From: Labilibaculum sp.
GTDB taxonomy: Bacteria > Bacteroidota > Bacteroidia > Bacteroidales > Marinifilaceae
Direction: 5' to 3'
DNA: 64,000 nucleotides
Assembly (NCBI RefSeq): GCF_963664555.1
Contig: NZ_OY761461.1
Span: 1,054,001-1,118,000, forward strand
The notes under the pieces are model-generated. The model had not been told where the DNA came from, did no database searches, and saw only the letters and a program-made list of their open reading frames with translations. The first letter of the stretch is position 1; every line of letters begins with the position of its first letter. The translations under genes and the position numbers were made by a program. Below are positions 20,528 to 45,958 of this stretch, one piece after another.

Positions 20528-23500
20528 ATGATGATTAAAAAAGCGAAATTAAAAATTCCGGTGCAATCGTTGTCAAGGCAATTGTTAATTTTTACTGGAA
20601 TTGCGCTAATGTTGCTTTCTGCAACTGTGGCATATGCGCAGACTGAACGAACCGTAACCGGTGTTGTTGTTTCTGCGACAGACAATACGCCAATACCGGG
20701 TACAAATGTAGTTATAAAAGGAACTACAATTGGTGGAATTACCGATATTGATGGAAACTACTCTATTCAGGTTAACGAAAACGATGTCGTTGTTTTTTCT
20801 TTTATTGGATTTAGATCTCAGGAAGTTCTTATCTCCAATCAGCAGGTAATAAATATTATATTGGCTGAAGATATATCCAGCCTTGATGAAGTTATTGTTG
20901 TAGGTTACGGTGTTCAGCAGAAAAAGCTAGTGACTGGTGCTACTTCTCAGATGAAAGGAGATGCAATTCAAAAGCAAAATGCGACTAACCCTTTACAAGC
21001 CATGCAAGGTCAAACGGCCGGTGTTAATATTGCGTCTACTTCAGGGCAGCCAGGGGCAGACATGAGAGTAACCATTCGTGGTATTGGTACAGTTGGAGAT
21101 TCTCAACCACTCTATATTATTGATGGAGTTCAAGGAGATATCACAACGGTAAATGCTTCAGACATTAAAAGTCTGGATGTATTAAAAGATGCTGCTTCTG
21201 CGGCCATTTATGGTTCTCAGGCTGCTAATGGTGTTGTTTTGGTTACTACAAAACAAGGTAGAGCGGGAAAAGCTCAAATTTCATTTGATGCATATTACGG
21301 TGTGCAGAATGTAGCGAGGACTACTAATATGCTGAACAGAAATGAATACATTTCTATCATGCAGGAACAAGCATTAAATTCTGGATCACCTTTATATGAT
21401 GCCAGTGTTTTTGATGGTGCTGCCGATACTGATTGGGTGAATCAAATGTTTGAAGACAATGCTGTTACAGAGAATTATTCACTTGGAATTACCGGAGGGA
21501 CAGATGCTTCTGTTTATGCTCTTTCCTTATCTTATATTGATCAGGAAGGTATTGTAGGTGGTGCAGATGTATCAAACTATGAACGATATGGCTTTCGTGT
21601 TAATACAGAGCACAAATTGTATGGAAATATTTTGAAGGTTGGCCAACATATGAATTTCAATTATATTAAGAATAATGGAGTTGCTGTTGGTAATCAATAT
21701 AGTAATAGTTTAAGAGGTGCATTTGGTACGTCTCCTTTATCACCAGTATATAGTGATAACAATATTTACGGTAGTCCTTACAATGACACATCTAATTCAC
21801 AATGGAATACGGGTGATGGTAATCCTTACGGATCATTAATGACTAATAATAAAAATGCCAGCGATCAGCAAAAAATGCTTGCTGATATTTATGCGGAATT
21901 AGAGCCTGTTAAAAATTTAAAAATCAAATCATTGTTTGGTTTTAATTATTATGCTTCTGAATATCGAAGTTATTCACCATTGTATCAGTTCTCTATTTAT
22001 TCATATAACAATGATCACACCACAGTGAATCAAAACATGAGTAAAGGACATACCATGACCTGGACAAATACCGCAAGTTATAGTTTTGATCTTAATGAAG
22101 TACATAAGTTTGATGTATTGGCTGGTATGGAAGTTATTCGTTTTCAGGGAACTAAATTGGAAGGTTCAAATTGGGATCTGCTCTCACAGTTCGACAATTT
22201 CGGAGGTGCTTATCTTGATAACACAAGTGGACAAGCAGAGTTGGATAAAGATCCGGAAACAGGTGAAGTAAAAGGAGTTATTGAGAAACGCACAGTTGGA
22301 GGTGGACCAGAGGTGAAATCACGTCGTCTGTCCTATTTCGGTCGTTTGGGATACAACTACAAAGAAAAATACATGCTGAATGCGACTTTACGTGCAGATG
22401 CATCATCGAAATTTACCAAAGGGAATCGCTGGGGATATTTTCCATCTGTTTCAGCAGGTTGGGTTGCAACAAATGAACCATTTTTAGAATCGGTTAATAC
22501 CTGGATGGATTTCCTTAAAGTAAGAGCAAGTTGGGGACAGGTAGGTAACCAGTCTATTGATGATTTTCAGTATGCAGCACCTGTTAACACATCAACCAAT
22601 TTTTCAGGAACTGATCCAGCTGCTAATTATGTGTTTGGTACAGCACTGGTAAATACACCTGGAGCATATCCAAGCAGATTATCCAACCCAAATGTAAAGT
22701 GGGAGACCTCGGAACAAACCAATATTGGTTTCGATGCTTATTTTATGAATAGTCGATTGGGTGTTAATGCAGATTTTTATGTGAAAAAAACCAAAGACTG
22801 GCTGGTAACAGCACCAATTTTAGCAACTGCCGGTACATCTGCTCCTGTTATTAATGGAGGTAATGTGAAAAATACAGGAATTGAATTGGCCTTAACATGG
22901 TCTGATAATATTGGAGATTTGAATTATCATATTGGTGTTAACGGTGCTTATAATAAAAACGAGGTAGGACAAATCCCTACTGATGATGGAATTATTCATG
23001 GCTTATCAAATATGTTGTATGATAATTCACCGGAGTTTTACAGAGCTGAAAATGGACATGCCATCGGATATTTCTGGGGTTATGCAACAGCTGGAATATT
23101 CCAGAGTGAGGCAGATATACAAGCTTGGCGAAATGCGGGAAATGGAATTTTGCAGGACGATGTAAAACCAGGTGATGTAAAATATGTAGATCAGGATAAA
23201 GATGGAATCGTAAATTCTGACGATAAAGTAGATTTGGGTAGTGGTATTCCTGATTTGACTTATGGTTTTAATCTTAGTTTGGACTACAAAGGATTTGATT
23301 TGGCAATTTCTGCTAATGGTGTTGTGGGTAATGAAATTGTACAGTCGTACCGGAACCAGGGGAATAAGAAGGCTAATTACACAACAGCTGTATTGCAGCG
23401 CTGGACTGGCGAAGGAACATCCAATAACATGCCGCGTGTTACAGAAACCAATGTAAACTGGCAATTCTCAGACCTTTATATACAAAATGGAGACTTCTTA

Positions 23501-23728
23501 CGCATTAGTAATATTGCTTTGGGATATGATTTTAGCAGATTGACTAAAAACAAATTATTCAGTCAGCTGCGATTATATGCTGCTGTTCAAAACGCATTTA
23601 CTTTTACAAAGTATGATGGTATGGATCCGGAAATAGGATATGGAACACAAAGTTGGGTGTCAGGGGTCGATTTAGGATATTACCCACGTCCTCGTACTTT
23701 CCTGATTGGTGTTAATCTTAAGTTTTAA
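20528..23728 (+). CDS. SusC-like TonB-dependent outer-membrane receptor
   Basis: A 1,066-residue SusC/RagA-type transporter that imports oligosaccharides with energy from TonB. I place the start at 20528 (MMIKKAKLK), because it gives a clean signal peptide ending VAYAQ; the frame is open for 16 more codons upstream. Next come a CarboxypepD-regulatory-like domain (about 25-110, with GVVVSATDNTPIPGTNV), the plug with DEVIVVGYGVQQKK (TonB-box-like region), and a beta-barrel ending in the aromatic FLIGVNLKF. The susD gene follows after 21 bases. As first gene of the PUL it should be induced by the HTCS protein encoded at 36953. The likely cargo is xyloglucan oligosaccharides, inferred from the neighbouring enzymes. 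Confidence 0.95.
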   Translation: MMIKKAKLKIPVQSLSRQLLIFTGIALMLLSATVAYAQTERTVTGVVVSATDNTPIPGTNVVIKGTTIGGITDIDGNYSIQVNENDVVVFSFIGFRSQEVLISNQQVINIILAEDISSLDEVIVVGYGVQQKKLVTGATSQMKGDAIQKQNATNPLQAMQGQTAGVNIASTSGQPGADMRVTIRGIGTVGDSQPLYIIDGVQGDITTVNASDIKSLDVLKDAASAAIYGSQAANGVVLVTTKQGRAGKAQISFDAYYGVQNVARTTNMLNRNEYISIMQEQALNSGSPLYDASVFDGAADTDWVNQMFEDNAVTENYSLGITGGTDASVYALSLSYIDQEGIVGGADVSNYERYGFRVNTEHKLYGNILKVGQHMNFNYIKNNGVAVGNQYSNSLRGAFGTSPLSPVYSDNNIYGSPYNDTSNSQWNTGDGNPYGSLMTNNKNASDQQKMLADIYAELEPVKNLKIKSLFGFNYYASEYRSYSPLYQFSIYSYNNDHTTVNQNMSKGHTMTWTNTASYSFDLNEVHKFDVLAGMEVIRFQGTKLEGSNWDLLSQFDNFGGAYLDNTSGQAELDKDPETGEVKGVIEKRTVGGGPEVKSRRLSYFGRLGYNYKEKYMLNATLRADASSKFTKGNRWGYFPSVSAGWVATNEPFLESVNTWMDFLKVRASWGQVGNQSIDDFQYAAPVNTSTNFSGTDPAANYVFGTALVNTPGAYPSRLSNPNVKWETSEQTNIGFDAYFMNSRLGVNADFYVKKTKDWLVTAPILATAGTSAPVINGGNVKNTGIELALTWSDNIGDLNYHIGVNGAYNKNEVGQIPTDDGIIHGLSNMLYDNSPEFYRAENGHAIGYFWGYATAGIFQSEADIQAWRNAGNGILQDDVKPGDVKYVDQDKDGIVNSDDKVDLGSGIPDLTYGFNLSLDYKGFDLAISANGVVGNEIVQSYRNQGNKKANYTTAVLQRWTGEGTSNNMPRVTETNVNWQFSDLYIQNGDFLRISNIALGYDFSRLTKNKLFSQLRLYAAVQNAFTFTKYDGMDPEIGYGTQSWVSGVDLGYYPRPRTFLIGVNLKF

Positions 23729-23749
23729 TGTTGATAAAGATTTAGAATT

Positions 23750-25384
23750 ATGAACAAAATAAAATTAAATATTCTAACATTTGGAATGCTGAGTCTGGGC
23801 TTATTCTCTTGCTCAGAATCATTTCTGGATGTAGAACCGGAAACCTCTATTTTTGATAGCAATTTTTACAAAACGGAGGCTGATTTTGAAATGGCTTTAG
23901 TTGGTTGTTACGATGGATACCAAAGAACAACATCTGATGGCGGAACTGCTTTCTATGTAGCTTCAGAGCTTCTGTCGGATGAATGTTTTGGTGGTGCAGG
24001 TGCAGGAGACGATAGAAATAATCAGCTTTTGGATCGATTTGATCTAAGTCAGGCACCTTCTTATAATGATATTTTTAACGAGACATGGAAATCTTATTAT
24101 GCTGGAATTTTTCGTTGTAATAAATTGTTAACGAAACTGGATGGTATTAGCTGGGAAGGAAAAGAAGAAACTCGTAACAGAATAGAAGGCGAAACTCGAT
24201 ATTTACGTGCGTTATTGTATTTCGATTTGGCACGATTGTTCAATAAAGTGCCCTTGTTGCTTGAACCAACTACCGATAATGTGCCTCAATCGGAACCTGC
24301 AGCTATTTATAAAATAATTGCTGAAGATTTAAAGTTTGCTGCTGAAAATATTAATCAGCCGGCTTATTCCCCTTCATGGGCGACAGCAAATGACGGACGG
24401 GCTACTCAATGGGCTGCTAAAGCAGTGTTAGGAAGAGTATTCTTATTCTATACAGGTTATTATGGTACTTCCGATTTAGAAGGAGTAGTTGATAAAGCTT
24501 ACGTATTGGCAGGACTTGAGAATGTAATATTAGAAGGTGGATTTTCTCTTGTTTTAGATTATAAAAATCTTTGGCAAGCAGCATCCAGTGCACCCGATGT
24601 AGAAAACAATACATTGGCTGGTACTTGGGCCGGAAGAGGGAATTCAGAAGCCGTATTTACACAAAAATTCAACTATACTTCCGATTATAATGGAAATATT
24701 GATGGAAACAGATGGCTGGTGATGATGGGATTAAGAGAAACGACCTCTTCACCTTATGGTTACGGATGGGGATTATGCACTGTAAATCCGAAAACTGTTC
24801 AGAGTTTTGATACTGATGATCAGCGGAAAACAGCCTCAGTTATTGACATAGCCTCCGAAGGTGTAGCTGAGGATCTTGATTTATCTAAATGGCGGGAATA
24901 TACCGGATATTGTAACAAAAAATACATACCTCTTGCACTTCCTGATGGAACTTATATTGTTGAAGGCTTAGGAGAAGGTGATAATCAAATTTCACAATTT
25001 CAGGATTTTATTGTTGTGCGCTATTCTGATGTTTTATTGATGGCTGCCGAATTGGGCAGTGCAAAAGCTCAAACATATTTTGATGAAGTGAGAGGACGGG
25101 CTGGTTTAGGGACTAAAACTGTAACAAAGGAATCCATTATGGCTGAGCGTAAGGTAGAGTTTGCTTTTGAAGGAATCAGGTATTGGGATTTATTACGTCA
25201 GGGAATTGATGTGGCTGCTGCTGCAATTGCAGAAAATAATACAGAAGTATTAAGTGCGAATGTGTCTGATTTTGTTACAATCACCGAAGCAAACATCAAA
25301 AAAACAAAAGGGTTTATGCAAATTCCGAATACACAAATCACTCTTTCGAATGGTGTATTGAAGCAAAATGAAGGATGGGAGTAG
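23750..25384 (+). CDS. SusD/RagB-family outer-membrane glycan-binding lipoprotein
   Basis: A 544-residue lipoprotein with the anchor at C21 (GLFSC). The N-terminal SFLDVEPETSIF segment and the helical TPR-like region with ETRYLRALLYFDLARLFNKVPL (split here as a family hallmark, about 143-165) are typical of SusD. The C-terminal MAERKVEFAFEGIRYWDLLRQG region is diagnostic. It caps the SusC barrel at 20528 and delivers oligosaccharides. Its stop codon lies 16 bases before the most likely start of the next lipoprotein, so the genes form one operon. Confidence 0.95.
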   Translation: MNKIKLNILTFGMLSLGLFSCSESFLDVEPETSIFDSNFYKTEADFEMALVGCYDGYQRTTSDGGTAFYVASELLSDECFGGAGAGDDRNNQLLDRFDLSQAPSYNDIFNETWKSYYAGIFRCNKLLTKLDGISWEGKEETRNRIEGETRYLRALLYFDLARLFNKVPLLLEPTTDNVPQSEPAAIYKIIAEDLKFAAENINQPAYSPSWATANDGRATQWAAKAVLGRVFLFYTGYYGTSDLEGVVDKAYVLAGLENVILEGGFSLVLDYKNLWQAASSAPDVENNTLAGTWAGRGNSEAVFTQKFNYTSDYNGNIDGNRWLVMMGLRETTSSPYGYGWGLCTVNPKTVQSFDTDDQRKTASVIDIASEGVAEDLDLSKWREYTGYCNKKYIPLALPDGTYIVEGLGEGDNQISQFQDFIVVRYSDVLLMAAELGSAKAQTYFDEVRGRAGLGTKTVTKESIMAERKVEFAFEGIRYWDLLRQGIDVAAAAIAENNTEVLSANVSDFVTITEANIKKTKGFMQIPNTQITLSNGVLKQNEGWE

Positions 25385-25400: not shown

Positions 25401-27392
25401 ATGATGAAAAAACTATATAATTTATTAATATTTCTGGTTCTATCAGCTATAGTGTATACAAGTTGTACACCAGATAAATACGATCTCGAAAAAATTGATG
25501 TCAAATCAGAAGATTTGGTGGAGGGTATAGCCTATACGATAACACATGACACTGAAAATCCAAATATCGTTTATCTAACAAGTTTAATGGAATCTAAATA
25601 CACACCTCTTTGGAATCATCCTCAGGGCAGAAGTCAAGGACAAAAGGATACATTAAAGATTGCATTTCCAGGTGTTTACAAGGTTCTTTTTGGCGTGAAT
25701 ACAAGAGGAGGGGTCGTATTCGCCGCTGATTCAGCAGAGTTTGTAATTGATGAATTTTATTCGGGATTCGTTGATCATAAGTTGTGGACTAATTTAACTG
25801 GTGGTGTTGGACATGAAAAAACGTGGCGACTGGATTATGGTTCTTATGGCCTTGCTTCAGGACCTTTGACTTATTGCGCACCTCAAACAACCTGGAATGA
25901 ATGGCAAGCGGGTACTGCTTCAATCGGTTGGGCTCCTGCATGGGTTGGTAACGAATGGATTATAGAAGAAGCTGATAAAGACAGTAGAATGACTTTTAGT
26001 CTGATTGACGGTGCTGTGATGACTACTCATAAAGTTACCGAAGGAGTGGATGAGGTAGGAACTTTTTCACTGGATGTAGATAATCATACTATAACCACTA
26101 CAGATGCCACCATTCTTCGTTCTAACAACTTTATTGCTAATGCAACTAACTGGAATCAGAATTTGGTTATTTTAGAACTAACAGAAAATCAATTGATGGT
26201 TGGCGTTAGAAGAACAAATGATGAAGGAGATTATTTATATGCCTGGAATTTTGTTTCTGATGAATATGCTGAAAATTATGTGCCGGATGATGTTCCTGAT
26301 CCTGAACCACCTTATGATGGTGATGCTAATAATGATTTAACAACGACAGTTACTGTTTCAAAAACATGGACAGTTGATATGGATTACCCATACAATTGGT
26401 TTGGATTAGATGGCAGTGCACTAAGTGAGGTTGCTACTTACGGAAGTGATCCAGAGGGATTCACTTTTACAACATGGACACCTCCATATGACCAGGTTAT
26501 TTTTGAATCCATAAACTTATCCTTAACTAAGCAAGGGGATAAGGATGGAAATTATGAATTAGTAACTGCAGAAGGCACTGTGGTTGGTAATTATACAATT
26601 GATGATTCTAACAATATAGATTTTGGTCAACCTTTGAGTGTATTTTCAGATGTTGGAGGTTGGTTATCTTTTGGTACAAGCGAAGCTGAAAATCTGACGA
26701 ATACTTTAAGAGTTATTGTTTCGGAAAAGGATGCATTAGGTAACATTGAAGCTATATGGTTGGGCATGAGATCAGCTGATAAGGATGAATATTTAGCATT
26801 GCATTTAAAACCAACTAGCTCTGGTGGAGAAGAGAATCCAGAAGAAGCTCTTAAGAATATTATTTGTGGAAGTACATGGAAAGTTGATTCTGGGCGCAGC
26901 TATGATAAAACTACTAGCTGGGGAGCTGAACAAGGTCCTGTTATTTTTTCAGATTATTCTACTTGGGCTTATAATCCTCTTCCAGGTCAACATTATGCTG
27001 CAGGTGAAGCTGATATTGACTATGGTAGTATGAAATTTGAATTAGACGGTACAGTATCTGTTAGTCAACATCGCAGAATCTACACGTATGTTGATGAAAC
27101 ATCTGGTGAAACTCTTGTTCGTAATGGTTCTCCTGAAGATGGAGATATTCTGGATACGGATGATATTGTAAATTTAAACGGCACTTGGACACTTGATTTG
27201 GATAATAATAAATTAAGTATGTCTGTTGGAGTTGTTCACCCATGGACCTGTGATTATATGGTCTTGGATTGGGGAGATCTTACAATTTACCGTATTGATG
27301 GAGAAGCTATGTTGTTACAAGCTTTGCGAGATCCTGATCGCTCTGGTGAGGATGCTTTTCAAATGACTTATGTTTTTGTACCTCTTCAATAA
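25401..27392 (+). CDS. PUL-encoded surface lipoprotein, probable glycan-binding protein (SGBP-like)
   Basis: A 663-residue lipoprotein from the start at 25401 (MMKKLYNLL), with lipobox Cys at residue 22 (VYTSC); an earlier in-frame ATG at 25368 overlaps susD and gives no better signal. The body is beta-rich and aromatic. After an N-terminal Ig/PKD-like region come two or three related segments of about 150 residues starting KTWRLD, KTWTVDMDYPYNWFG and STWKVDSGRSYD. Each has many Trp, Tyr and Asp residues, as in carbohydrate-binding repeats. I do not recognize a named family. Position directly after susD is where PULs encode SusE/F-like or SGBP proteins, so binding of the polysaccharide at the surface is the likely job. 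Confidence 0.7.
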   Translation: MMKKLYNLLIFLVLSAIVYTSCTPDKYDLEKIDVKSEDLVEGIAYTITHDTENPNIVYLTSLMESKYTPLWNHPQGRSQGQKDTLKIAFPGVYKVLFGVNTRGGVVFAADSAEFVIDEFYSGFVDHKLWTNLTGGVGHEKTWRLDYGSYGLASGPLTYCAPQTTWNEWQAGTASIGWAPAWVGNEWIIEEADKDSRMTFSLIDGAVMTTHKVTEGVDEVGTFSLDVDNHTITTTDATILRSNNFIANATNWNQNLVILELTENQLMVGVRRTNDEGDYLYAWNFVSDEYAENYVPDDVPDPEPPYDGDANNDLTTTVTVSKTWTVDMDYPYNWFGLDGSALSEVATYGSDPEGFTFTTWTPPYDQVIFESINLSLTKQGDKDGNYELVTAEGTVVGNYTIDDSNNIDFGQPLSVFSDVGGWLSFGTSEAENLTNTLRVIVSEKDALGNIEAIWLGMRSADKDEYLALHLKPTSSGGEENPEEALKNIICGSTWKVDSGRSYDKTTSWGAEQGPVIFSDYSTWAYNPLPGQHYAAGEADIDYGSMKFELDGTVSVSQHRRIYTYVDETSGETLVRNGSPEDGDILDTDDIVNLNGTWTLDLDNNKLSMSVGVVHPWTCDYMVLDWGDLTIYRIDGEAMLLQALRDPDRSGEDAFQMTYVFVPLQ

Positions 27393-27464: not shown

Positions 27465-29147
27465 ATGAAATTGCACCATATATTAATCTCCTTTTTGATT
27501 GGGTTGATGGTTTTTGGAGGATGTTCAAATGACGAAACCAGCATAAATCCGGAATTGGTAGTTTCTGTTGATAAGCTGGATATCGCAAAAGCCGGGGAAA
27601 CAAAAACCATTCATGTTAAAAGTAATGTGGATTGGACGATCGAAAGTTCAGAATCATGGTGTACTGTAACTCCAAATTCCGGAAAAACAGGAACTAACGC
27701 AATAGAAGTACTTGTTAGTGCAAATAACAACACCGATGAAAGAGCAGCAAGCCTTACTGTAAGAGCTGGTGATCTCACTAAGGAAATACCTGTTGTGCAA
27801 GCTCCCGAATATTTATTGTTACTGACAAAAAGTGCATTTGAACTTAATTCCGATGCTCAGGAAATAAGCATAGAATTTCAAACATCCGGAAAGGTAGAAA
27901 TTGCTGTTGACGGAGCTTGGATTGCAAAGAAAGAATTAAAAAGTGTAGCCGAAGGATCTCAAACTTTTATAATTAGTGCAAACGAATCTTTTATAGCACG
28001 GGAAGGCAGTATCAAATTTACTTTAGATGATCTTACAGAAATAGCCACAATCAATCAAAGTGGAATCGATTTGAACATTCCTGCAGATGAAACTGGTGTT
28101 GAAAGTAATGCAGTGACTTTGGCTGGGAAAATGATAGCAGGATGGAATATTGGGAACTCTATGGAAGTACCCGGAGGAGAAACAGGTTGGGGAAATCCGG
28201 TTGTTTCCAAACAATTAATAGACGGCGTTAAAGCTGCTGGGTTTAATGCGATTCGTATTCCATGTGCATGGGATGCTTATATTACAGATAGAGAAGCTTA
28301 TAAGGTGTCTGATACCTGGTTTGCCAGAGTAAAAGAAGTGGTTGATTATTGTTACGAAAATGAAATGTATGCCATCTTAAACATTCATTGGGATGGTGGA
28401 TGGTTGGAGAACAACCCAACTTACGATAAACAAGACGAAGTAAATAAAGAGCAATATGCCCTTTGGCAGCAAATAGCGGTGTATTTTAGGGACTATGATG
28501 AACATTTGTTGTTTGCAGGAACCAATGAAGTTCATGCGGATTATAGAACTCCTTCAGAGGAGAATTACACTGTTCAGCAATCCTTTAATCAAACCTTTGT
28601 AAATGCTGTACGATCTACAGGAGGAAAGAATGCCTACCGAAACCTGGTGGTTCAAACCTACAATACAAACATTGCACATGGTGTCAATTTTCATGAAATG
28701 CCAACCGATGAAGTTGCAGATCGGTTAATGCTTGAAGTACACTATTATGATCCTTGGGATTTTTGCGGACAGGAGGAAAGCGGTTTCAAAACCCAATGGG
28801 GAAGTGGATATACAGATGTTTCCAGTTACGGACAGGAAGACTATTTAAATGAACAATTTGGAGCCATGAAAAACAACTATTCGGATAAAGGTATTCCTGT
28901 AATTTTAGGTGAGTACGGAGCCATGTTAAGGGCTGATTTGACTGGTGATGCATTAACTACTCATATTGAATCGAGGAATTATTATTTAAAAACAGTTACC
29001 CATTCTGCAAAAGCAAATGGCATGATTCCTTTTATATGGGATAATGGTGGTACCGGTAATAATAGTTTTGGTTTATTCGATAGAAGTATCGGGAATGAGG
29101 TTCATTCCGATGCGATTGATGCGATTATTGAAGGTGCAACAAATTAA
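27465..29147 (+). CDS. GH5 endo-beta-1,4-glucanase / xyloglucanase with BACON domain, lipoprotein (GH5_4-like)
   Basis: A 560-residue surface lipoprotein (anchor C20, VFGGC). Residues about 30-110 form a BACON domain (VKSNVDWTIESSESWCTV), and a second related beta-sandwich spans about 115-200. The GH5 barrel runs from about 222 to 560 and begins AGWNIGNSMEVPGGETGWG, the pattern of subfamily GH5_4. The acid/base is E355 (GTNEVH) and the nucleophile E483 (LGEYGAM). The same BACON-GH5_4 arrangement occurs in the characterized Bacteroides ovatus endo-xyloglucanase. With the alpha-xylosidase-type GH31 next door, xyloglucan backbone cleavage at the cell surface is the most likely role; activity on mixed-linkage glucan is the alternative. 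Confidence 0.88.
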   Translation: MKLHHILISFLIGLMVFGGCSNDETSINPELVVSVDKLDIAKAGETKTIHVKSNVDWTIESSESWCTVTPNSGKTGTNAIEVLVSANNNTDERAASLTVRAGDLTKEIPVVQAPEYLLLLTKSAFELNSDAQEISIEFQTSGKVEIAVDGAWIAKKELKSVAEGSQTFIISANESFIAREGSIKFTLDDLTEIATINQSGIDLNIPADETGVESNAVTLAGKMIAGWNIGNSMEVPGGETGWGNPVVSKQLIDGVKAAGFNAIRIPCAWDAYITDREAYKVSDTWFARVKEVVDYCYENEMYAILNIHWDGGWLENNPTYDKQDEVNKEQYALWQQIAVYFRDYDEHLLFAGTNEVHADYRTPSEENYTVQQSFNQTFVNAVRSTGGKNAYRNLVVQTYNTNIAHGVNFHEMPTDEVADRLMLEVHYYDPWDFCGQEESGFKTQWGSGYTDVSSYGQEDYLNEQFGAMKNNYSDKGIPVILGEYGAMLRADLTGDALTTHIESRNYYLKTVTHSAKANGMIPFIWDNGGTGNNSFGLFDRSIGNEVHSDAIDAIIEGATN

Positions 29148-32090: not shown

Positions 32091-32112
32091 TTAACTCACG
32101 GGAAGCAATATG

Positions 32113-36952: not shown

Positions 36953-39900
36953 ATGTATAGATTGATTGGCATAATCCTGCTTTTTGTTTTATCAAGTTTC
37001 TCAATTCAGGCTGAGAGGCAATATTCTTTTCTCAAAGTTGATAATGTTGATGGATTAATTAACAACCATGTTAATTGTACTTATAAGGATACAAGAGGCT
37101 TTATTTGGATTGGAACAAGAGCTGGATTAAGTAGATTTGATGGTTTTCAGTTTGTTAATTACACACATACAACAAAAGATACAACAACAATAGCAGATAA
37201 TTACATTGAGAACATACAGGAAGATGCTGATGGGAATTTGTGGATTGGTACTTTGCAGGGTTATGTTGTTTTTGATATAAATAAGGAAAAGTTTTATAGG
37301 GATTTATCATTATTCATTGGAGAAAAAAGTTCATCGCAAAATATAGAGGTTTTATACATTGATAAGAATAAACAGAAATGGATTAAGCCATATAATCAGA
37401 ATTATTATCAGCGGGTTGACTCTGTTACGGGTAAATTGATAAGCGTTTTTCCTGTGCATGAAAAAGAAGAATGTTGTGTTGTGAATTTTCAACAGGCCAA
37501 CGGAGATTATTATTACCTTTTAAGCAATGGAATTATCGAATGTTACGATGGAGAGAATTACAATCTCAAATTCAGAAATGATCACTTATCAGGAAAACTG
37601 GGTGCAGATAGCTTAAGTACAGCTCTTTTAATTGATGCAGAGAATGATATTTGGTTGTATGGAAATAACGATGGGCTGTATCAATACCAAATAGTAAATG
37701 AGAAGTGGAATCATTACACGGTTCATTCAAATAAAATACGCTTAACAAGTAATATCGTAAAAAGAGTTATACAAGATGATAAGGGGCTGATTTGGGTTGG
37801 GACTGACCATGGAGGTATTGATGTGATTAATAAGTTTTCCGGAGAAGTAACCCAAATATACCATCAATCCGATAACGATAAAAGTATAGCTCAGAATTCA
37901 ATTACTGATTTATACATTGATGATAATAACATAATTTGGATTGGGACATTTAAAAATGGGCTAAGTTATTATCATGAGAGTATTCACAAATTTCCTCATT
38001 ACAGACATTTATTGTCCGACCCATCAAGCCTGCCGTATAATGATGTAAACTGTTTCGTGGAAGATGAAAAAGGGAATTTATGGATAGGAACAAACGGAGG
38101 CGGACTTATTTATTTTAATCGTCATGCAAATACTTTTACAAAATATCAATATGAAGAAGACAAGCCTAATTCTTTAAGTGGTAATGTTGTTGTGAGCTTA
38201 TTTATTGATAGTGAAAAAGAACTGTGGGTTGGAACATATACGGGAGGACTAAATCGTTTTAATGGAAAAACATTTAAAAGGTATCAATATTCACCAAATA
38301 AAAATAATGGTCTCACAAGCAACAATATATGGTCAATCAATGAAGATAATCAACAAAATATATGGGTTGGTACCCTTGGAGGAGGAATTGTAATATTCGA
38401 TCGGATCAATAAGATTTTTAAACCTGTTCCGAATAAAGGGAATGTAAATTTACCAACAAAATTTGTTAAACAGATTTACAAATTAAATAATGGTAATTTC
38501 TTTATTGCAACGGAGAGAGGTGTCCTGTTTTATGACCTTAAAGAACAACGTTACAAGTATCATCCATTGCTTGCAAGATCAACGCCACTGGCCATTAGTA
38601 ATAAAACAGTTAATGCAGTTTATGAAGATACCCGCGGTTTGCTTTGGATTGCTTCCCGTGAAGGTTTGATTGTGGTTAATCCCAACACAGATTTTGTTAA
38701 AAGTTTTACTGTGTCAGATGGCTTATCAGAAGATTTTATTAGTTGTATTTTAGAAGATGAGTTTCAATCTATCTGGGTAAGCAAATCAAGTGGTTTAAGT
38801 CAAATAGTAGTTAATCAGACTTTACCGGGCGAAGAATATTCATTTTCTATTTTTGATTATACAGAAGAGGATGGCTTGCAGGGAAAAGAATTTAACACAC
38901 AAGCTGCATACAAAACTTCTAAAAATGAATTAATTTTTGGCGGGAGCAACGGGTTTAATATGTTTCAATCCAAAAATATCAGATACAATCAGATTTCACC
39001 AAAAGTAGTATTTACCGACTTTCAAATTTTTAATAAAAGCATCAAGCCCAATACCCCGATTAATAACAAAATTGTTCTTAAAGAATCGATTACCTCTGCT
39101 AAATCTATTGAGCTAAAGTACTCGATGAATGTTTTTTCCATCGAATTTACGGCACTTAACTTTTTTATTCCGAGTAAAATTAAATATCAATATAAATTGG
39201 AGGGATTCGATGATGATTGGGTGTCGTTGGATGCAAATCGAAATCGGGTAACCTACACCAATCTTAATCCGGGAGATTATTATTTTAAAGTTAAGGCATC
39301 CAATAACGATGGAATTTGGAATGAGGATTATGCCCAATTGCATATTATTGTGCTTCCTCCTTTATATGCAACACCATTTGCCTACTTAATTTATATTTTA
39401 TTAGGTGTTGGTATCTTGGGGTATTTCAGATATTCGATGCTTCGTAAAGAGCGTCTGAAATTTGATGTTGAGCAAGGGCGCCTGCAAGCGAAACGCAATC
39501 ATGATATGGATGAAATGAAACTGAGGTTTTTAACGAATGTCAGTCATGAATTTCGTACGCCATTAACGCTGATTTTAGCCCCTTTGGATAAATTGTTAAA
39601 GCAAACCAGATCCGAATCGGAAAAAAAATTGCTTGATACCATTGAGAGAAATGCCAGGCAACTGCTTAATCTGGTAAACCAGTTACTGGATTTTCGTAAG
39701 TTGGAGTTGCATGGATTGAGATACAATCCATCTTACGTTGATATTGTTGCTTTTTTAAACGAAGTGACTCATAATTTTGAGGATGCCTTTAACAAGAAGC
39801 GTATCAAATTCATATTTGAGCATTCAACAGAACATTTTATCTTCAATTTCGATAAAGAAAAACTGGAGAAGGTAATGATGAACCTATTATCCAATGCTTT

Positions 39901-41050
39901 AAAATTCACTCATGAAAAAGGGAATGTAAAATTAAAGTTGGAAGTAAAAGATGAAGATGGAATTGTTAATATTATTATTCAGGATAATGGTGTTGGAATA
40001 GATGAAGAGGATATCGACAAAATATTTGTGCGTTTTTATCAATCCGAAAATAATAAGAAATTGGGACTGTCTGGAAGTGGAATTGGATTGAATCTTGCCC
40101 GTGAGATGATTCAACTGCACAATGGTATTATTGAGGTGGAAAGCGAGCGGGGTAAAGGGGCCAAATTTAAAGTGAGTTTGCCAATTGATAAAACCGTTAT
40201 AATAGATAATGAAGATCTGGAAAGAGTAGAAGATGATTTTGTTAGGCCTGAACAAGAATCTGAAAGTAGTGAGAAAATCAAAAAGCCGATTATTTTATTG
40301 GTTGAAGATAATATTGATTTCAGATCGTTTATGAAAGAAGCACTGCAGGAACAGTTTAAGATCTACGAGGCTCAGGATGGTCAGAAGGGGTACGATACAG
40401 TTCATAAGGTACATCCCGATTTAATTATTAGCGATGTGATGATGCCAAAAGTTGATGGCCTTGAATTGTGTACAATGCTTCGTAAAGATATCCGGACATC
40501 TCACATCCCGTTTATACTTTTAACCGCACGAACAGCTGATGAAGATAAAATTAAAGGGCTGGAAATTGGTGCTGATGATTACATAACTAAACCCTTTAAT
40601 ATGGATTTACTCCTTTTGCGGGTTCGTAAATTGCTTGAGAAAAGAAGTCAGTTCCAAAAACAGTTTCAAAAAACGGTTGATATTAGTCCAAGCGAAGTTC
40701 AGATTACTTCTATGGATGAAAAATTGATTAAAAAAGCCGTTGCAATAGTTGAGAAAAATATTTCAGAAGCTGGTTTTTCAGTTGAAGACTTAAGCAAGGA
40801 GTTGGGGATGAGTCGTGTTTACCTGTATAAAAAATTAGTTTCGATAACGGGTAAATCTCCTATTGAGTTTATTAGAATTATCAGATTAAAAAGAGGAATT
40901 CAACTTCTGGAAAAAAGCCAGATGAATATTGCTGAAATTGCATACGAAGTAGGATTTAACAGCCCACGTTATTTCAGTAAGTATTTTAAAGAAGAGTATG
41001 GTATTTTGCCAACGGCCTATGTAAAAAGACATAAGCAAGATGGAGAATAA
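36953..41050 (+). CDS. hybrid two-component system (HTCS) sensor-regulator of the PUL
   Basis: A 1,365-residue inner-membrane one-protein sensor and transcription factor. The start at 36953 (MYRLIGIILL) gives a signal or first membrane segment; an open frame back to 36797 overlaps the GH3 gene and is unlikely. Periplasmic Reg_prop beta-propeller repeats (GLIWVGTDHGG, NLWIGTNGG and others) fill about 20-700, followed by a Y_Y_Y domain (about 740-800) and a membrane helix (about 803-825). Histidine kinase: H865 in NVSHEFRTP; ATPase GSGIGLNLAR. Receiver: phospho-acceptor D1161 in LIISDVMMP. An AraC-type helix-turn-helix is at the C-terminus (VGFNSPRYFSKYFKEEYG). It should sense a breakdown oligosaccharide and activate the susC promoter. 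Confidence 0.96.
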   Translation: MYRLIGIILLFVLSSFSIQAERQYSFLKVDNVDGLINNHVNCTYKDTRGFIWIGTRAGLSRFDGFQFVNYTHTTKDTTTIADNYIENIQEDADGNLWIGTLQGYVVFDINKEKFYRDLSLFIGEKSSSQNIEVLYIDKNKQKWIKPYNQNYYQRVDSVTGKLISVFPVHEKEECCVVNFQQANGDYYYLLSNGIIECYDGENYNLKFRNDHLSGKLGADSLSTALLIDAENDIWLYGNNDGLYQYQIVNEKWNHYTVHSNKIRLTSNIVKRVIQDDKGLIWVGTDHGGIDVINKFSGEVTQIYHQSDNDKSIAQNSITDLYIDDNNIIWIGTFKNGLSYYHESIHKFPHYRHLLSDPSSLPYNDVNCFVEDEKGNLWIGTNGGGLIYFNRHANTFTKYQYEEDKPNSLSGNVVVSLFIDSEKELWVGTYTGGLNRFNGKTFKRYQYSPNKNNGLTSNNIWSINEDNQQNIWVGTLGGGIVIFDRINKIFKPVPNKGNVNLPTKFVKQIYKLNNGNFFIATERGVLFYDLKEQRYKYHPLLARSTPLAISNKTVNAVYEDTRGLLWIASREGLIVVNPNTDFVKSFTVSDGLSEDFISCILEDEFQSIWVSKSSGLSQIVVNQTLPGEEYSFSIFDYTEEDGLQGKEFNTQAAYKTSKNELIFGGSNGFNMFQSKNIRYNQISPKVVFTDFQIFNKSIKPNTPINNKIVLKESITSAKSIELKYSMNVFSIEFTALNFFIPSKIKYQYKLEGFDDDWVSLDANRNRVTYTNLNPGDYYFKVKASNNDGIWNEDYAQLHIIVLPPLYATPFAYLIYILLGVGILGYFRYSMLRKERLKFDVEQGRLQAKRNHDMDEMKLRFLTNVSHEFRTPLTLILAPLDKLLKQTRSESEKKLLDTIERNARQLLNLVNQLLDFRKLELHGLRYNPSYVDIVAFLNEVTHNFEDAFNKKRIKFIFEHSTEHFIFNFDKEKLEKVMMNLLSNALKFTHEKGNVKLKLEVKDEDGIVNIIIQDNGVGIDEEDIDKIFVRFYQSENNKKLGLSGSGIGLNLAREMIQLHNGIIEVESERGKGAKFKVSLPIDKTVIIDNEDLERVEDDFVRPEQESESSEKIKKPIILLVEDNIDFRSFMKEALQEQFKIYEAQDGQKGYDTVHKVHPDLIISDVMMPKVDGLELCTMLRKDIRTSHIPFILLTARTADEDKIKGLEIGADDYITKPFNMDLLLLRVRKLLEKRSQFQKQFQKTVDISPSEVQITSMDEKLIKKAVAIVEKNISEAGFSVEDLSKELGMSRVYLYKKLVSITGKSPIEFIRIIRLKRGIQLLEKSQMNIAEIAYEVGFNSPRYFSKYFKEEYGILPTAYVKRHKQDGE

Positions 41051-41154
41051 TTGCCCTTGATGCGGGATTAACATTTAGTTACCCTTTTGGAAACATTTGA
41101 TATGTGAAAATATTGAGTTTGTAATTATTTTAGCCTTTAAATTAAAATGGAGTT

Positions 41155-42552
41155 ATGAATTCAAAATTTTTAGTTAAAGTAAGCCTTGTGCTTATGCTTT
41201 TTTATTTAATTCCTAGGCCTGCTTATTCCAATGTTTCATTGCCTGCTATTTTTGGCAAGCACATGGTGATGCAGCAAAATTCAGAGGTGAAACTATGGGG
41301 TTGGGGCAAACCGATGGAAAAAATTAGAGTTACTACCTCATGGGATAATGATACCCTAAATACTGTAACCAATAATAATGCAAAATGGTCGGTAACCATA
41401 AAAACTCCTGAAGCAGGAGGTCCTTATTCAATAAATATAGAAGGATACAATTCTGTTGTTATCGATGATATATTAATGGGTGAGGTGTGGTTGCTTTCGG
41501 GGCAGTCGAATATGGAATGGAAAACCAGCTTTGGAATTAATAATATAGGAGAAGAGGTTGAAAATGCTGACAATAATGAAATTCGTTTTTTTTCAGTAAC
41601 GCTTAAAACATCACCAACTAAATGTATTGATGTTTCAGGTCAGTGGATGAAATGTACGCCCGAAAACATGAATGATTTTAGTGCTATAGGTTATTTTTTT
41701 GGAAAGGAACTGAATAAAGAACTTAAGATTCCTGTTGGATTAATCAGCTCTAATTGGGGTGGAACGCCAATTGAAACATGGGTTCCGGAGCAAGAAATTT
41801 TGGCTTCGAATGAGTTAACAGAATCTGCTCAAAAGGTACCTTATTTTCCTTGGGCACCCAATATGCCTGGTTGTGTTTACAATGCAATGATAGCACCGAT
41901 TATGCCTTTCCCAATGAAAGGAGTTTTGTGGTATCAGGGAGAAGCTAATGTCGATAATTCAGCAACATATACCAAAACCCTTGAGACTTTAGTGAGAAGT
42001 TGGAGGAAAGGTTTTAAAACTGATCTTGCTTTTTATTATGCACAAATAGCTCCTTTTACTCACTATGCTAAAGATGCAGGAGTAAAAGTCCGCGAAGCTC
42101 AACGCCGTGCTTTAGAATCTATTCCAAATTCGGGAATGGTTGTAATGAGTGATATTGGTGATCCTCTTGATATTCATCCACGTAATAAAATTGACGCAGG
42201 GAAGCGGTTTGCACATCTGGCACTTAATAAAACCTATAAGTTGAGTGATTTTCCAGCATCAGGACCGCTTTTTAAGACTTTTTTGATTAAAGGATCAGAA
42301 GTCGAAGTAATTTTTGATTGTGCAGAAGGATTGCATTGTGAGAAAGCTGATTTGCCCTATTTTGAATTAGCAGGAGAGGATGGAATCTGGTTTTCTGCTC
42401 AGGCTTTTATTAAAAACGACAAAGTACTTGTGAAATCAGAGGAAGTTAGGAATCCCGTTAATGTGAGATTTGCCTGGGCCAATTCAGCCACACCAAAACT
42501 TTTTAACAAGGATAATTTACCGGCTTCCTGTTTTACTACAATTGATTTTTGA
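41155..42552 (+). CDS. sialate O-acetylesterase-family SGNH esterase, secreted (probable xyloglucan or xylan O-acetyl esterase)
   Basis: A 465-residue secreted esterase (signal peptide ending PAYS). It has the sialate O-acetylesterase-like architecture: N-terminal jelly roll (about 27-105), then an SGNH domain with catalytic S118 in LLSGQSNMEW, the NWGGTPIETW block, LWYQGEAN and catalytic H341 in GDPLDIHPRNK. Members outside sialic-acid loci often deacetylate plant hemicellulose. The position in a xyloglucan-type PUL supports removal of O-acetyl groups from galactose or the glucan backbone. The next gene, another SGNH esterase, begins 20 bases later. Confidence 0.88.
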   Translation: MNSKFLVKVSLVLMLFYLIPRPAYSNVSLPAIFGKHMVMQQNSEVKLWGWGKPMEKIRVTTSWDNDTLNTVTNNNAKWSVTIKTPEAGGPYSINIEGYNSVVIDDILMGEVWLLSGQSNMEWKTSFGINNIGEEVENADNNEIRFFSVTLKTSPTKCIDVSGQWMKCTPENMNDFSAIGYFFGKELNKELKIPVGLISSNWGGTPIETWVPEQEILASNELTESAQKVPYFPWAPNMPGCVYNAMIAPIMPFPMKGVLWYQGEANVDNSATYTKTLETLVRSWRKGFKTDLAFYYAQIAPFTHYAKDAGVKVREAQRRALESIPNSGMVVMSDIGDPLDIHPRNKIDAGKRFAHLALNKTYKLSDFPASGPLFKTFLIKGSEVEVIFDCAEGLHCEKADLPYFELAGEDGIWFSAQAFIKNDKVLVKSEEVRNPVNVRFAWANSATPKLFNKDNLPASCFTTIDF

Positions 42553-42572
42553 AAACCATATAATTTTTATAA

Positions 42573-43658
42573 ATGAGAACTATAGTAAAGAATATCATTT
42601 TATTGTCCTGCGTGTTTGTTTTTGGATTTTGTAATGTTCAAAATCAGGATATTGCATTCGATCAGCCAAATTTAACTTACGAAGGCCGAATTATGTTTCG
42701 ACCTGATGCTGCGGAGCTTTCATGGTCGGGTTCTTCGGTAAGTATCCAATTTAAGGGAAGCAGTATTTCAGCTACTTTGCAGGATTTGGATACGGCAAAT
42801 TATTACAATGTGATTGTTGATCGTAAGGTGATTTCGAAATTGCATACCGATACACTGAAAACAAAATACATACTAGCCTCAGGCTTATCTGAAGGAATAC
42901 ATCAAGTACAATTGTATAAACGTACCGAATGGGATAAAGGGAAAACATTGTTTTATGGTTTTGAATTACCCGGTGATGCAAAACTTCTGCCGGCGGAAAC
43001 ACCCAAAAAGAGAAAAATAGAGTTCTACGGAAACTCCATTACCTCTGCGTATGGAAATGAAGATACTAGTGGAAAAGATCGTCCGTATGGTTATTTTCAA
43101 AATAACTATGAATCATACGCAGCTATTACAGCAAGACATTTTAATGCTCAATACCATTGTATTTCTAAAAGTGGTATCGGAGTATTGGTTAGTTGGTTTC
43201 CATTGATTATGTCCGAAATGTATGATCGAATCGACCCAAATGACTCAGTTTTAAAATGGGATTTTTCCAAATATACACCTGATGTAGTAGTAATTAATCT
43301 TTTTCAGAACGATTCATGGATCGTAAATATCCCCAAAAATGAGCAGTTTAAAAATAGATTTGGTAAGGATGCACCCGATTCAACAACTATTATTGCAGCT
43401 TACAAAGATTTCGTCACTTCCATTCGCGGTAAGTATCCACATTCGTCTATTATCTGTACCCTTGGCAGTATGGATGCAACCCAAAAAGGATCTCAGTGGC
43501 CTGGATATGTACAAACAGCAGTAAGTCAATTAAAGGATGATAAGATATTCTCTTGTTTTTTCCCGTTTAAAAATTCAGGCGGACATCCAAACATTAAGGA
43601 ACATCAAGTAATGGCTGACCAATTAATTGAGTTCATTGAAGAAAATATTGAATGGTGA
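42573..43658 (+). CDS. SGNH/GDSL esterase resembling carbohydrate esterase family 2
   Basis: A 361-residue exported protein. The first about 22 residues are hydrophobic with a Cys at residue 20 (GFGFC-like context), which is not a good lipobox. Residues 30-140 form a jelly-roll domain, then a GDSL-type domain begins KIEFYGNSIT with catalytic S155. The usual Asp before Ser is replaced by Asn (G-N-S instead of G-D-S). The C-terminal catalytic His is H338 in SGGHPN, and the position of the usual Asp two or three residues before it is Gly. That is compatible with the Ser-His dyad described for CE2 enzymes. The pair of esterases (20-base gap) suggests a substrate with more than one type of acetyl group. 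Confidence 0.75.
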   Translation: MRTIVKNIILLSCVFVFGFCNVQNQDIAFDQPNLTYEGRIMFRPDAAELSWSGSSVSIQFKGSSISATLQDLDTANYYNVIVDRKVISKLHTDTLKTKYILASGLSEGIHQVQLYKRTEWDKGKTLFYGFELPGDAKLLPAETPKKRKIEFYGNSITSAYGNEDTSGKDRPYGYFQNNYESYAAITARHFNAQYHCISKSGIGVLVSWFPLIMSEMYDRIDPNDSVLKWDFSKYTPDVVVINLFQNDSWIVNIPKNEQFKNRFGKDAPDSTTIIAAYKDFVTSIRGKYPHSSIICTLGSMDATQKGSQWPGYVQTAVSQLKDDKIFSCFFPFKNSGGHPNIKEHQVMADQLIEFIEENIEW

Positions 43659-43729
43659 TTTAGAGCCTAATATAAAAAACTGCACTTAAATTGATATCAT
43701 TAGCGTATTATTAAGGACCAAATGCAGTT

Positions 43730-43766
43730 GAGAGGTAGTGTTAGGAAACTAGTACTACCTCTCTTT
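43730..43766 (+). terminator. hairpin, possible terminator after the esterase pair
   Basis: GAGAGGTAGT and ACTACCTCTC form a perfect 10-bp stem around a 14-base loop, followed by TTTACAAAAA. The T-run is short. It lies 72 bases after the stop codon and before the GH42 gene. Confidence 0.55.
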
Positions 43767-43879
43767 ACAAAAAATATCCTGTTAACACTCGATTTTTGAT
43801 CTCTTTAGAAGGCATTGAAAAAAATAGCTTACGGTTTAGGCAGGACACCAAAATTGAGAAGATCTAATAAAGAAAAAAT

Positions 43880-45958
43880 ATGGCAAAGAAAATTAGCTTA
43901 TTGGCATTACTAATCAGCAGTTGGATTGGTGTTTTATCTGCACAGGATTTTTTTCCTAAAAAGGATTTGATGTCTGTTGGTGTGTATTACTATCCTGAGC
44001 AATGGTCGGAAGATCAATGGGAAAGGGATATTGAGAATATTGCCGGTTATGGATTCGAATTTATTCATATGTCTGAATTTGCCTGGGCTCAGATGGAACC
44101 ATCTGAGGGCAAGTATGATTTTACCTGGCTTGATAAAGTAATTGAGTTGGCTGATAAAAATAAGCTGAAAGTGATTTTGGGAACACCTACGCCTTGTCCT
44201 CCGGTATGGCTCGGAATTAAGTATCCCGAAATATACATACAAGATGGTAATTATCAATCTAAAGAACATGGCACCCGTGCAAACATGTCATTATCCAACC
44301 CGATTGTTTTGGAGTATACACAGAAGATTGTGGCGGCAATGGCCAAACATTATGCCCACAACAAAGCTGTAATGGGATGGCAAATTGACAATGAGCCGGA
44401 GGCTAAAGAAGATTACAGTCCGTCTGCACAATTGGCATTTCGGAAATGGTTACAAAATAAGTATGCAAATATTACTGAACTGAATAAGGCATGGGGAACG
44501 GCATTTTGGAGTCAGTTGTATTCATCTTTTGAAGAAGTTAGAATTCATAATGCTCAAAATGTAGGTTGGTGGGGTGCAAATCCTATTGCTTTATTGGATT
44601 TTAAACGCTTTACAGCGGATACGCAAGCATCTTTTTTAGATTTTCAGGCAGAGGAATTGCGGAAATATATTGATGAATCGCAGTTTATCACTACAAACTA
44701 TGTAGCAAAAGGAAATCATACGGATCCGCGAAGAAGTAAAAAACTTGATTTTGCTTCATTTACAGCTTATCCCAATTATGGAAGCAATAATCTGGGAGAC
44801 TTGGGTTTTCGTTTAGGTGATCACACCGTTTTAATGTATGCCAATGATTATTATAAGTCGGTAAATGGTATTACAGGAGTTATGGAACTGCAGCCCGGAC
44901 AGGTAAATTGGGCCAATTACAATTCATTGTTACAGCCCGGAACCGTTCGTATGTGGCTGTGGCATTGTTTTGCAGGAGGTAGTTCTTTTGCATGTACCTA
45001 TCGTTACCGACAAGTACTTTATGGTGCCGAGCAATATCATCATGGTGTGGTTCGAACCGATGGTGTTACTTTGAGTCAGGGAGGAGAGGAGTATGTACAG
45101 GTGATCAAAGAGGTGAATGAATTGAGGAAAAAGTACAGCAAGAATACTCAAATGCCTGAAGCTGTTCAGAAGAGAAAAACTGCCATCATGTGGTCGTTTG
45201 ACAACCTTTGGAATCTGGAAAGACAAAAGCAAACCTATCAATGGGATACTTGGAAACACATGCAGCGTTATCAGCAGATACTGCATTCATTTGGTGCTCC
45301 GGTGAGTTTTATTTCAGCGGAAGATGATTTTGATGATTATGAATTTATTATAGTTCCTGCTTACGAAATGGTAGACGAGGCGTTGGTTCAGAAATGGAAA
45401 AAGTTCGTTTCAAAAGGAGGTAAGCTTATTGTTTCACCAAGAACCGGCGCTAAAGATAAAAATGCTCATTTATGGGAAAATAATTTATCGGGCATTATGA
45501 ATGAACTAATTGGAGGAAAGATTTATTCATTTGATATGCTTCCATCCGGGAAACAAGGTAATATTTTAATGGATGGGAAAAATTACAAATGGAGTTCATG
45601 GGGAGATTTAATTATACCGGAAGATAAAACTGAGGTCGTAGCTAGTTATACCGATCAATTTTACAAAGGAACTGCCTGCATTTTAAAAAATGAAATTGGT
45701 AAAGGGCAGGTTTGGTATATTGGAGCAGAATCTGTTGATGGGGATTTGGAACGAAATCTACTGAAAAATATATATCAGCAAAATAATATCGTGGTAGAGA
45801 ATTATCCTGAAGGTGTTTTTGTTCAGTATCGCGATGGTTTTATGGTGGCTGTTAACTATTCTTCCGAAGAGTATATTTTAGATTATAATGGAGATTACCT
45901 GATAGGAGATAAGGTGCTGAAACCGGCAGATGTTGCTGTGTGGAGTATTGAGAAATAG
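43880..45958 (+). CDS. GH42 beta-galactosidase, secreted
   Basis: A 692-residue protein with a signal peptide (IGVLSAQ). The GH42 pattern is clear: GVYYYPEQWSEDQWERD at the start of the barrel, FIHMSEFAWAQMEPSEG, and the acid/base E172 in WQIDNEPEA. The nucleophile is E336 in VMELQPGQVNW. A trimerization-type Rossmann-like domain follows from about 430 (VSFISAEDDFDDYEFIIVPA) and a small beta domain closes the protein. GH42 enzymes are mostly cytoplasmic, so export here points to action on polymer-derived oligosaccharides. In the PUL it would remove galactose from xyloglucan side chains after fucose is taken off by GH95. A strong terminator follows. Confidence 0.9.
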   Translation: MAKKISLLALLISSWIGVLSAQDFFPKKDLMSVGVYYYPEQWSEDQWERDIENIAGYGFEFIHMSEFAWAQMEPSEGKYDFTWLDKVIELADKNKLKVILGTPTPCPPVWLGIKYPEIYIQDGNYQSKEHGTRANMSLSNPIVLEYTQKIVAAMAKHYAHNKAVMGWQIDNEPEAKEDYSPSAQLAFRKWLQNKYANITELNKAWGTAFWSQLYSSFEEVRIHNAQNVGWWGANPIALLDFKRFTADTQASFLDFQAEELRKYIDESQFITTNYVAKGNHTDPRRSKKLDFASFTAYPNYGSNNLGDLGFRLGDHTVLMYANDYYKSVNGITGVMELQPGQVNWANYNSLLQPGTVRMWLWHCFAGGSSFACTYRYRQVLYGAEQYHHGVVRTDGVTLSQGGEEYVQVIKEVNELRKKYSKNTQMPEAVQKRKTAIMWSFDNLWNLERQKQTYQWDTWKHMQRYQQILHSFGAPVSFISAEDDFDDYEFIIVPAYEMVDEALVQKWKKFVSKGGKLIVSPRTGAKDKNAHLWENNLSGIMNELIGGKIYSFDMLPSGKQGNILMDGKNYKWSSWGDLIIPEDKTEVVASYTDQFYKGTACILKNEIGKGQVWYIGAESVDGDLERNLLKNIYQQNNIVVENYPEGVFVQYRDGFMVAVNYSSEEYILDYNGDYLIGDKVLKPADVAVWSIEK

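Follow-up and report, generated by a model that had tools for sequence, protein, structure and literature searches.

The window analysed here is a 64,000-nucleotide stretch of the genome of Labilibaculum sp. (GCF_963664555.1, contig NZ_OY761461.1, positions 1,054,001 to 1,118,000; the host genome is a single contig of 4.97 Mb). Between window positions 20528 and 45958 it carries a polysaccharide utilisation locus (PUL) of eleven genes, all on the forward strand, running from susC to a gene for a glycoside hydrolase of family GH42. An earlier reading made from the DNA letters alone (the sequence-only reading) had assigned this locus to fucosylated, acetylated xyloglucan, and open reading frames (ORFs) and family searches bear out its genes, order, strand and coordinates throughout. 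The locus opens with a SusC-type TonB-dependent transporter (20528-23728; TIGR04056, 887 bits; 90-98% identity in five relatives), a SusD-type lipoprotein (23750-25384; PF07980, PF14322) and a lipoprotein resembling surface glycan-binding proteins (SGBPs; 25401-27392), with a lipobox-like Cys seen by eye and an N-terminal domain similar to PDB 5jmb. They are followed by a BACON-GH5 lipoprotein, predicted to be a GH5_4-type endo-xyloglucanase (27465-29147; PF00150, PF13004), a predicted PA14-GH31 alpha-xylosidase with the motif WMDASEPD (29232-32090; PF01055, PF07691), a divergent GH95 of 804 residues with a signal peptide recognised by eye (32158-34572; PF22124, 264 bits; an alternative longer start lies at 32110) and a GH3, a probable beta-glucosidase (34707-36884; PF00933, PF01915; closest PDB entry 8va7, 764 bits). 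A hybrid two-component system (HTCS) regulator with Reg_prop, Y_Y_Y, HisKA, HATPase_c, Response_reg and AraC-type HTH domains (36953-41050) precedes two predicted acetylesterases, one SASA/CE20-like (41155-42552; PF03629) and one of family CE2 (42573-43658; PF17996), and the GH42, a probable xyloglucan beta-galactosidase (43880-45958; PF02449, 369 bits; PF08532; closest PDB entry 6y2k).

Inner ATG starts were taken for SusC (20528), the SGBP-like lipoprotein (25401) and the HTCS (36953), whose longest ORFs begin further upstream. The family domains pass the Pfam cut-off; the one exception is a GDSL domain (27.9 versus 32.9 bits) in the CE2 protein, where CE2_N passes. The GH42 had been described as exported; it has a signal peptide, which, like most of the lipoprotein signals, was judged by eye, and a simple lipoprotein motif search matched the GH5, GH31 and CE2 proteins only. 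Intergenic gaps are below 140 bp except for 221 bp upstream of the GH42, and a GH92 gene follows 557 bp downstream of it. Since GH92 had no match in the 3-6 kb past the GH42 in four relatives, it was rejected as a member and the GH42 was taken as the right-hand edge. A domain search found no GH9, GH43, GH2 or GH35 among the eleven proteins of the locus. The statement that GH9 and GH43 are absent therefore holds within the locus, while elsewhere in the genome GH9 occurs at one place and GH43 at 19 (18 above the cut-off).

Orthologs were sought in 96 genomes, the host's own included, with a GH5 match threshold of 1e-40. The GH5 gave a match in 12 of the 96, and five of the 95 other genomes (G003, G005, G006, G007 and G016) have an ortholog at 86-94% identity. 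G003, G005 and G016 carry all eleven genes in the same order, G007 carries ten and a GH95 remnant, and the G006 contig stops inside the GH95. This recurrence argues that the genes are grouped beyond chance. No GH5 ortholog was found in the same-genus genomes G001, G002 and G004. Conservation is lowest in the SGBP-like protein, at 61% (residues 1-482, G016) and 68% (residues 1-478, G003). One more genome, G332, belongs to the species of the window.

Xyloglucan as the predicted target

The closest PDB chains to the GH5 are CjGH5D (5oyc, 3e-110) and then BoGH5A (3zmr, 1.5e-96). Both are GH5_4 enzymes according to the papers that describe them. In subclade 2D of GH5_4, Trp252 is reportedly needed for full xyloglucan activity (PMC11892949), and Trp252 of BoGH5A corresponds to Trp209 of CjGH5D, whose acid/base is Glu255 (PMC5816542). 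As Glu255 is chain residue 183 in our alignment, Trp209 is chain residue 137, which stands opposite W309 of the window GH5; both catalytic Glu residues are retained. Among 35 GH5 rows from the loci collected, the equivalent residue is Trp in 29 (27 different genes, the window's included), His in 5 (4 genes) and missing in 1. By its nearest chains and this Trp we place the GH5 with GH5_4; a position outside GH5_4, which the sequence-only reading had named as the outcome that would speak against it, is not what we found. The GH31 is closest to BoGH31A (5jou, 1304 bits over residues 23-949), followed by 7kmp (978 bits) and CjXyl31A (2xvg, 970 bits), and the next best match drops to 316 bits. As in Bacteroidota xyloglucan utilisation loci (XyGULs), the GH31 carries a PA14 domain and the SusC/SusD pair adjoins a predicted surface-type lipoprotein. 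In addition, a xylose isomerase was found in the host genome, which we count in favour of xyloglucan. Because two characterised xyloglucanases are the nearest chains to the GH5, which keeps their Trp, and because the GH31 is nearest to BoGH31A and the synteny is conserved, the proposed target stands, and we consider it highly probable (roughly 0.85) that the locus is a XyGUL of the Labilibaculum lineage.

The locus is a variant of the known XyGUL, and its GH95, CE20-type esterase and GH42 have each been published in xyloglucan systems; the earlier presentation of the GH95 and the esterases as unusual additions was overstated. The XyGUL of Bacteroides ovatus has an HTCS, a BACON domain and a GH9. 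Its published content includes BoGH5A, BoGH31, GH2, GH3 and GH43 (PMC4967831); it has SusCD, SGBP, GH5_4, PA14-GH31 and GH3 in common with the window locus, which lacks GH2, GH43 and GH9 and has GH42, GH95, CE20-like and CE2 proteins instead. The clustering of GH31 with GH95 is stated for characterised Bacteroides XyGULs (PMC8245568), and BfGH95 of Bacteroides fluxus is active on XXFG/XLFG (PMC10154630). The hybrid XyGUL of Flavobacterium (Fjoh_0772-0782) likewise has a GH5_4 of subclade 2D with Trp252, SusCD and a CE20; a GH39 is reported for it, and the window locus has GH42 and CE2. The same study names GH5, GH31, GH3 and GH95 as XyGUL components (PMC11892949). The Xanthomonas citri XyGUL (GH74, GH31, GH35, GH95, CE20), which holds the founding CE20 member, also combines a GH95 with a CE20-type esterase and a GH31 (PMC8245568). 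It differs in its GH74 and GH35, in its canonical GH95, XacAfc95, which is 24-25% identical to that of the window, and in XacXaeA, which has an ancillary domain. In Ruminiclostridium cellulolyticum, a cluster with Gal42A, Xyl31A and Glu3A likewise directs GH42, GH31 and GH3 at xyloglucan oligosaccharides, but it is cytoplasmic, with an ABC importer, and the excerpts of its description name neither a GH95 nor an esterase (PMC4780118).

Galactose, acetyl groups and a possible pathway

We base our explanation on what the sequence shows of the genes and their order, of family placement and catalytic residues, and of conservation, and from this we infer the enzyme steps. The outer-membrane lipoproteins (SGBP-like and SusD) would hold xyloglucan, the surface GH5_4 would cleave its backbone, and SusCD would bring the oligosaccharides in. 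Two esterases, CE20-like and CE2, would strip acetyl groups in the periplasm, where the divergent GH95 would also take the terminal L-sugar, most likely alpha-1,2-L-fucose, off galactose. The GH42 would then take off the galactose, after which GH31 and GH3 would act in turn, starting at the non-reducing end. An oligosaccharide sensed by the HTCS may induce the locus. The removal of fucose probably serves to uncover galactose, with the fucose itself not used via fucose isomerase, for which the genome gave no match.

That GH42 takes the place of the usual galactosidase is plausible by analogy, with its linkage specificity standing as a prediction. Gal42A, a GH42 of Ruminiclostridium, frees galactose from XLXG/XXLG/XLLG (PMC4780118), and related loci have GH2 only, GH2 with GH42, or GH42 only. 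We labelled loci as of xyloglucan context in a wide sense when a GH31, a GH5_4 or a xyloglucan-type SusD lay nearby. Among 39 labelled loci, where cut or short loci were scored as misses, 26 have a GH2, and five (L082-L086, of the Labilibaculum type, 22 kb) have a GH42 with no GH2 in the flanks. A GH42 relative at 1e-60 occurs in 12 of the 33 genomes behind the labelled loci. GH2 and GH42 lie on the same contig in Carboxylicivirga A043 (L174), whose GH2 is closest to beta-galactosidases, and in N1Y90 (L175); in Plebeiobacterium (L176) and Bacteroidales C14-25 (L177) GH42 and GH95 lie on separate contigs. The GH42 adjoins GH5 in L177 and GH3, GH5 and GH31 in L178, a second cluster of Labilibaculum sp. 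K2S that also has a GH2, and the window GH42 is syntenic in four relatives. This distribution fits a gain of GH42 followed by a loss of GH2, which would amount to a galactosidase swap, traceable through intermediates, in a marine-sediment XyGUL. Alternatively, the GH42 may act on alpha-L-arabinopyranose or another side chain, with galactose removed by a GH2 encoded elsewhere. GH42 arabinopyranosidases exist, GH2 and GH42 coexist in the loci of Carboxylicivirga A043 and N1Y90 and in the second K2S locus, and outside the locus the host genome encodes GH2 at 8 places, one of which lies on the left side of the window. We regard this alternative as unlikely in view of the five GH42-bearing loci without GH2 and of the Gal42A precedent (PMC4780118).

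For the acetyl groups, two esterases of fitting families are present. The CE20-like protein aligns with the SGQSNM serine and the DIH of CE20 enzymes, in an SGNH core between beta-sandwich domains that were inferred from the aligned ranges. It matches 9ega and 9h4u as two blocks, skipping ~190-200 chain residues (in 9ega the jump is 212 to 410). At 465 residues, the window protein lacks the ancillary beta-sandwich inserted in the SGNH domain and thus does not fit the ancillary-domain CE20 type (clusters I-VI of PMC12313940). According to the same source, the CE20s associated with xyloglucan have the ancillary domain and eukaryotic ones are without it. Its relatives in L082, L083, L085, L086, L087 and L175 are 465-472 residues long, and those in two loci of Solitalea, whose GH95s share the clade of the window GH95, 646-647. 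The CE2 protein (PF17996, 99 bits) is closest to 2wao, the CE2 domain of 'endoglucanase E' (1e-51), whose GDSIT and HPS stand opposite its GNSIT and HPN in the alignment; we take the Ser and His of these motifs to be catalytic. The 'acetylated' part of the sequence-only reading thus keeps its two esterases, with acetylated xyloglucan as the substrate predicted at the level of families and a CE20-like protein that departs from the studied bacterial CE20s in its missing domain.

A divergent GH95 and the terminal L-sugar

The AlphaFold model of the GH95 (predicted local distance difference test, pLDDT, 91.3; predicted template-modelling score, pTM, 0.92) has the GH95 fold. It matches 10 GH95 entries (VIA) with Z scores of 35.6-39.8 and root-mean-square deviations of 2.1-2.6 Å over 674-745 residues, the next families reaching Z <=29.1, and 15 GH95 rows (Foldseek) with TM scores (query length) of 0.76-0.84. 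At 18-25% identity to the solved GH95s, it belongs to a divergent branch, outside that of the solved enzymes. Among the matches listed from 247 genomes of the order, six full and one partial relative show 37-47% identity and L046 shows 32% (342 bits), and the other 39 GH95 places listed show 27-32% (<=257 bits). In addition, 84,980 species genomes were scanned with two peptide patterns, and the best 80 of 386 relatives were kept (L082-L161). The best named relative is L082, from a metagenome-assembled genome of Marinifilaceae, with a best segment 100% identical, and Labilibaculum records come next. As canonical controls we used 20 loci from the 39 canonical places, which come from one order and are not a random choice. 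An alpha-xylosidase-type GH31 or a GH5_4 lies within flanks of <=10 kb in 32 of the 80 branch loci (29 of the 64 that span >=12 kb) versus 1 of the 20 canonical loci (L192), in samples that include close relatives on the branch side and are not independent of each other. The host genome has a second GH95, which is canonical (YTVNINTEMNY motif) and lies at C1:3641300-3661200 (L201) among four GH43 matches and a GH31-like match; this region resembles a complex-xylan PUL.

The window GH95 also differs from the canonical enzymes in its active site, which includes T387, H388, D389, G390 and N391 (codons at 33316-33330, 804-residue numbering). T387, D389, N391 and E519 align with T370, N372, N374 and E501 of BACOVA_03438 (4ufc; its chain numbering in our alignment matches the residue numbering in PMC4491172), and their counterparts in AfcA are H419, N421, N423 and E566; D691 was equated with AfcA D766 by the conserved F-x-x-D motif only, without alignment to AfcA. 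Published accounts of the two Asn differ. In one, N423 is the base, activated by D766, and N421 positions the acid (PMC12282258); PMC4491172 and PMC10154630 name both Asn. The role reported for N421 is thus either to help place the general acid or to take part in water activation. We compared 99 rows, made up of 78 branch loci, 20 canonical loci and the window; we left out L116, which is short, and L090, which lacks a long reading frame. The general acid Glu (E519) and the equivalents of N423 and D766 are kept in all 99. At the N421 site, the window has Asp (D389), and the canonical controls have 17 Asn and 3 Asp. Asp occupies this site in 43 of the 45 rows of one clade (Shimodaira-Hasegawa-like approximate likelihood ratio test 99, quick tree), and Asn in all 34 other branch rows; the two Asn rows inside the clade, L147 and L153, are both without xyloglucan context. 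Across the branch rows, xyloglucan context accompanies Asp in 39 of 43 and Asn in 0 of 36 (37/39 versus 0/26 for long loci only). These counts contain five independent pairs only, for which a sign test is not significant (median p 0.5), and the association is essentially that of one clade, mostly with one origin. The canonical GH95s break the pattern, with one Asn row in xyloglucan context and three Asp rows outside it. Among solved structures, 8zbv, an alpha-L-fucosidase of Pontiella sulfatireligans, likewise has the GH95 fold and Asp at the N421 site, but it keeps the canonical MNYW motif and is 22-24% identical to the window GH95.

We tentatively suggest, as a possibility with the odds against it, that many Bacteroidota xyloglucan loci recruited a GH95 lineage of their own, distinct from the fucosidases with solved structures, and that its change of AfcA Asn421 to Asp alters the unusual asparagine-base mechanism. 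If so, the Asp might place a carboxylate next to the general acid, or itself act directly as a carboxylate base, and the enzyme would be specialised for the L-sugar at the end of xyloglucan side chains. The clade tied to xyloglucan loci is not represented by any solved GH95 structure found here, and no description of it appeared among the matches listed in the open-licence literature (titles, abstract openings and passages). If active, the window enzyme would put the need of GH95 for its asparagine pair to the test, and the clade would caution against labelling each GH95 in such loci a standard alpha-1,2-fucosidase.

Several observations weigh against parts of our explanation. The window GH95 has Thr (T387) at the site that is polymorphic between fucosidases and L-galactosidases, where AfcA has His419; Thr is present in 79 of 79 branch rows, and among the canonical rows 14 carry His and 6 carry Thr. 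The fucose isomerase domain PF07881 is unmatched in the host genome, in a search that covered FucI as the only fucose pathway, and in 8 of 9 genomes of the genus, the host's included; the one genome with a match, G001, gave none for the GH5. In G007, the GH95 was lost by deletion, leaving a GH31-GH3 interval of ~586 bp versus 2616 bp in the window, and the neighbouring genes remain. In G006, a 63% complete draft, a TAA stop interrupts the GH95 frame at codon 367, and the genes seen around it remain. In K2S (L086), the same locus lacks the GH5, and its SusCD and SGBP differ from those of the window. Finally, the SGBP-like lipoprotein, which matched no Pfam or NCBIfam family, gave a weak AlphaFold model (pLDDT 59.5) that resembles an SGBP binding mixed-linkage glucan and laminarin, its best fold match being SGBP-B of B. 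fluxus (7kv7/7kv6); with such a pLDDT, this match is a hint only. The 'fucosylated' part of the sequence-only reading thus retains its GH95 but is less secure than proposed, because the enzyme lies outside the solved branch, has Thr at the polymorphic site, is broken in two relatives and has no FucI match beside it in the genome.

The target might be xyloglucan and the GH95 an alpha-L-galactosidase or other L-glycosidase, not a fucosidase. Against this speaks the rarity of L-galactose in xyloglucan. The idea draws on the alignment at site 419 with BACOVA_03438, an alpha-L-galactosidase that has Thr there (PMC4491172), and on the missing fucose isomerase matches in the genus. XacAfc95 and Blon_2335 also have Thr at this site, yet they are fucosidases (PMC8245568), and His or Thr at 419 was therefore rejected as a test of fucose versus L-galactose. 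We judge an L-galactosidase improbable, with fucose preferred as the terminal sugar. Somewhat less probable still is a locus mainly for non-fucosylated xyloglucan with a dispensable GH95 on its way to loss, as the remnant in G007, the stop codon in G006 and the lack of a FucI match would suggest; the reading frame is intact in the window, L082, G003, G005, G016 and K2S. That the PUL targets mixed-linkage or another beta-glucan, as the match of the weak SGBP-like model to SGBP-B with laminaritriose or mixed-linkage glucotriose might hint, is very improbable, since by family a xyloglucan-type GH31, a GH95 and a Trp252-bearing GH5_4 would have no evident role on an unbranched glucan.

Neighbouring DNA in the window

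To the left of the locus, divergent from susC, lies a putative uronate operon (11630-19690, reverse strand) that also adjoins the locus in G007. It includes an MFS transporter and genes that we take, from the look of their sequences, to be UxaC, KdgK, KDPG aldolase, UxuB, UxuA and a LacI-type regulator. Further left (670-11536, forward strand), a GH2, a sulfatase, a DUF5077-DUF3472 protein, a GH20, a GH109-type oxidoreductase and a galE-like ORF, recognised by eye, perhaps form a cluster for a sulfated amino-sugar glycan. To the right, the frame of the GH92 gene (46516-49402, forward strand) breaks just upstream of its C-terminal, PA14-bearing part, with 46516-48876 and 48854-49402 in different frames. 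A relaxase (PF03432) at 50479-52236 on the forward strand, with a small mobilisation-like ORF upstream and an ORF downstream, may be a remnant or the end of a mobilisable element. From 52789 to 64000, on the forward strand, a giant ORF of at least 3737 residues with many HYR-like repeats runs off the window; by eye, it is a probable adhesin.

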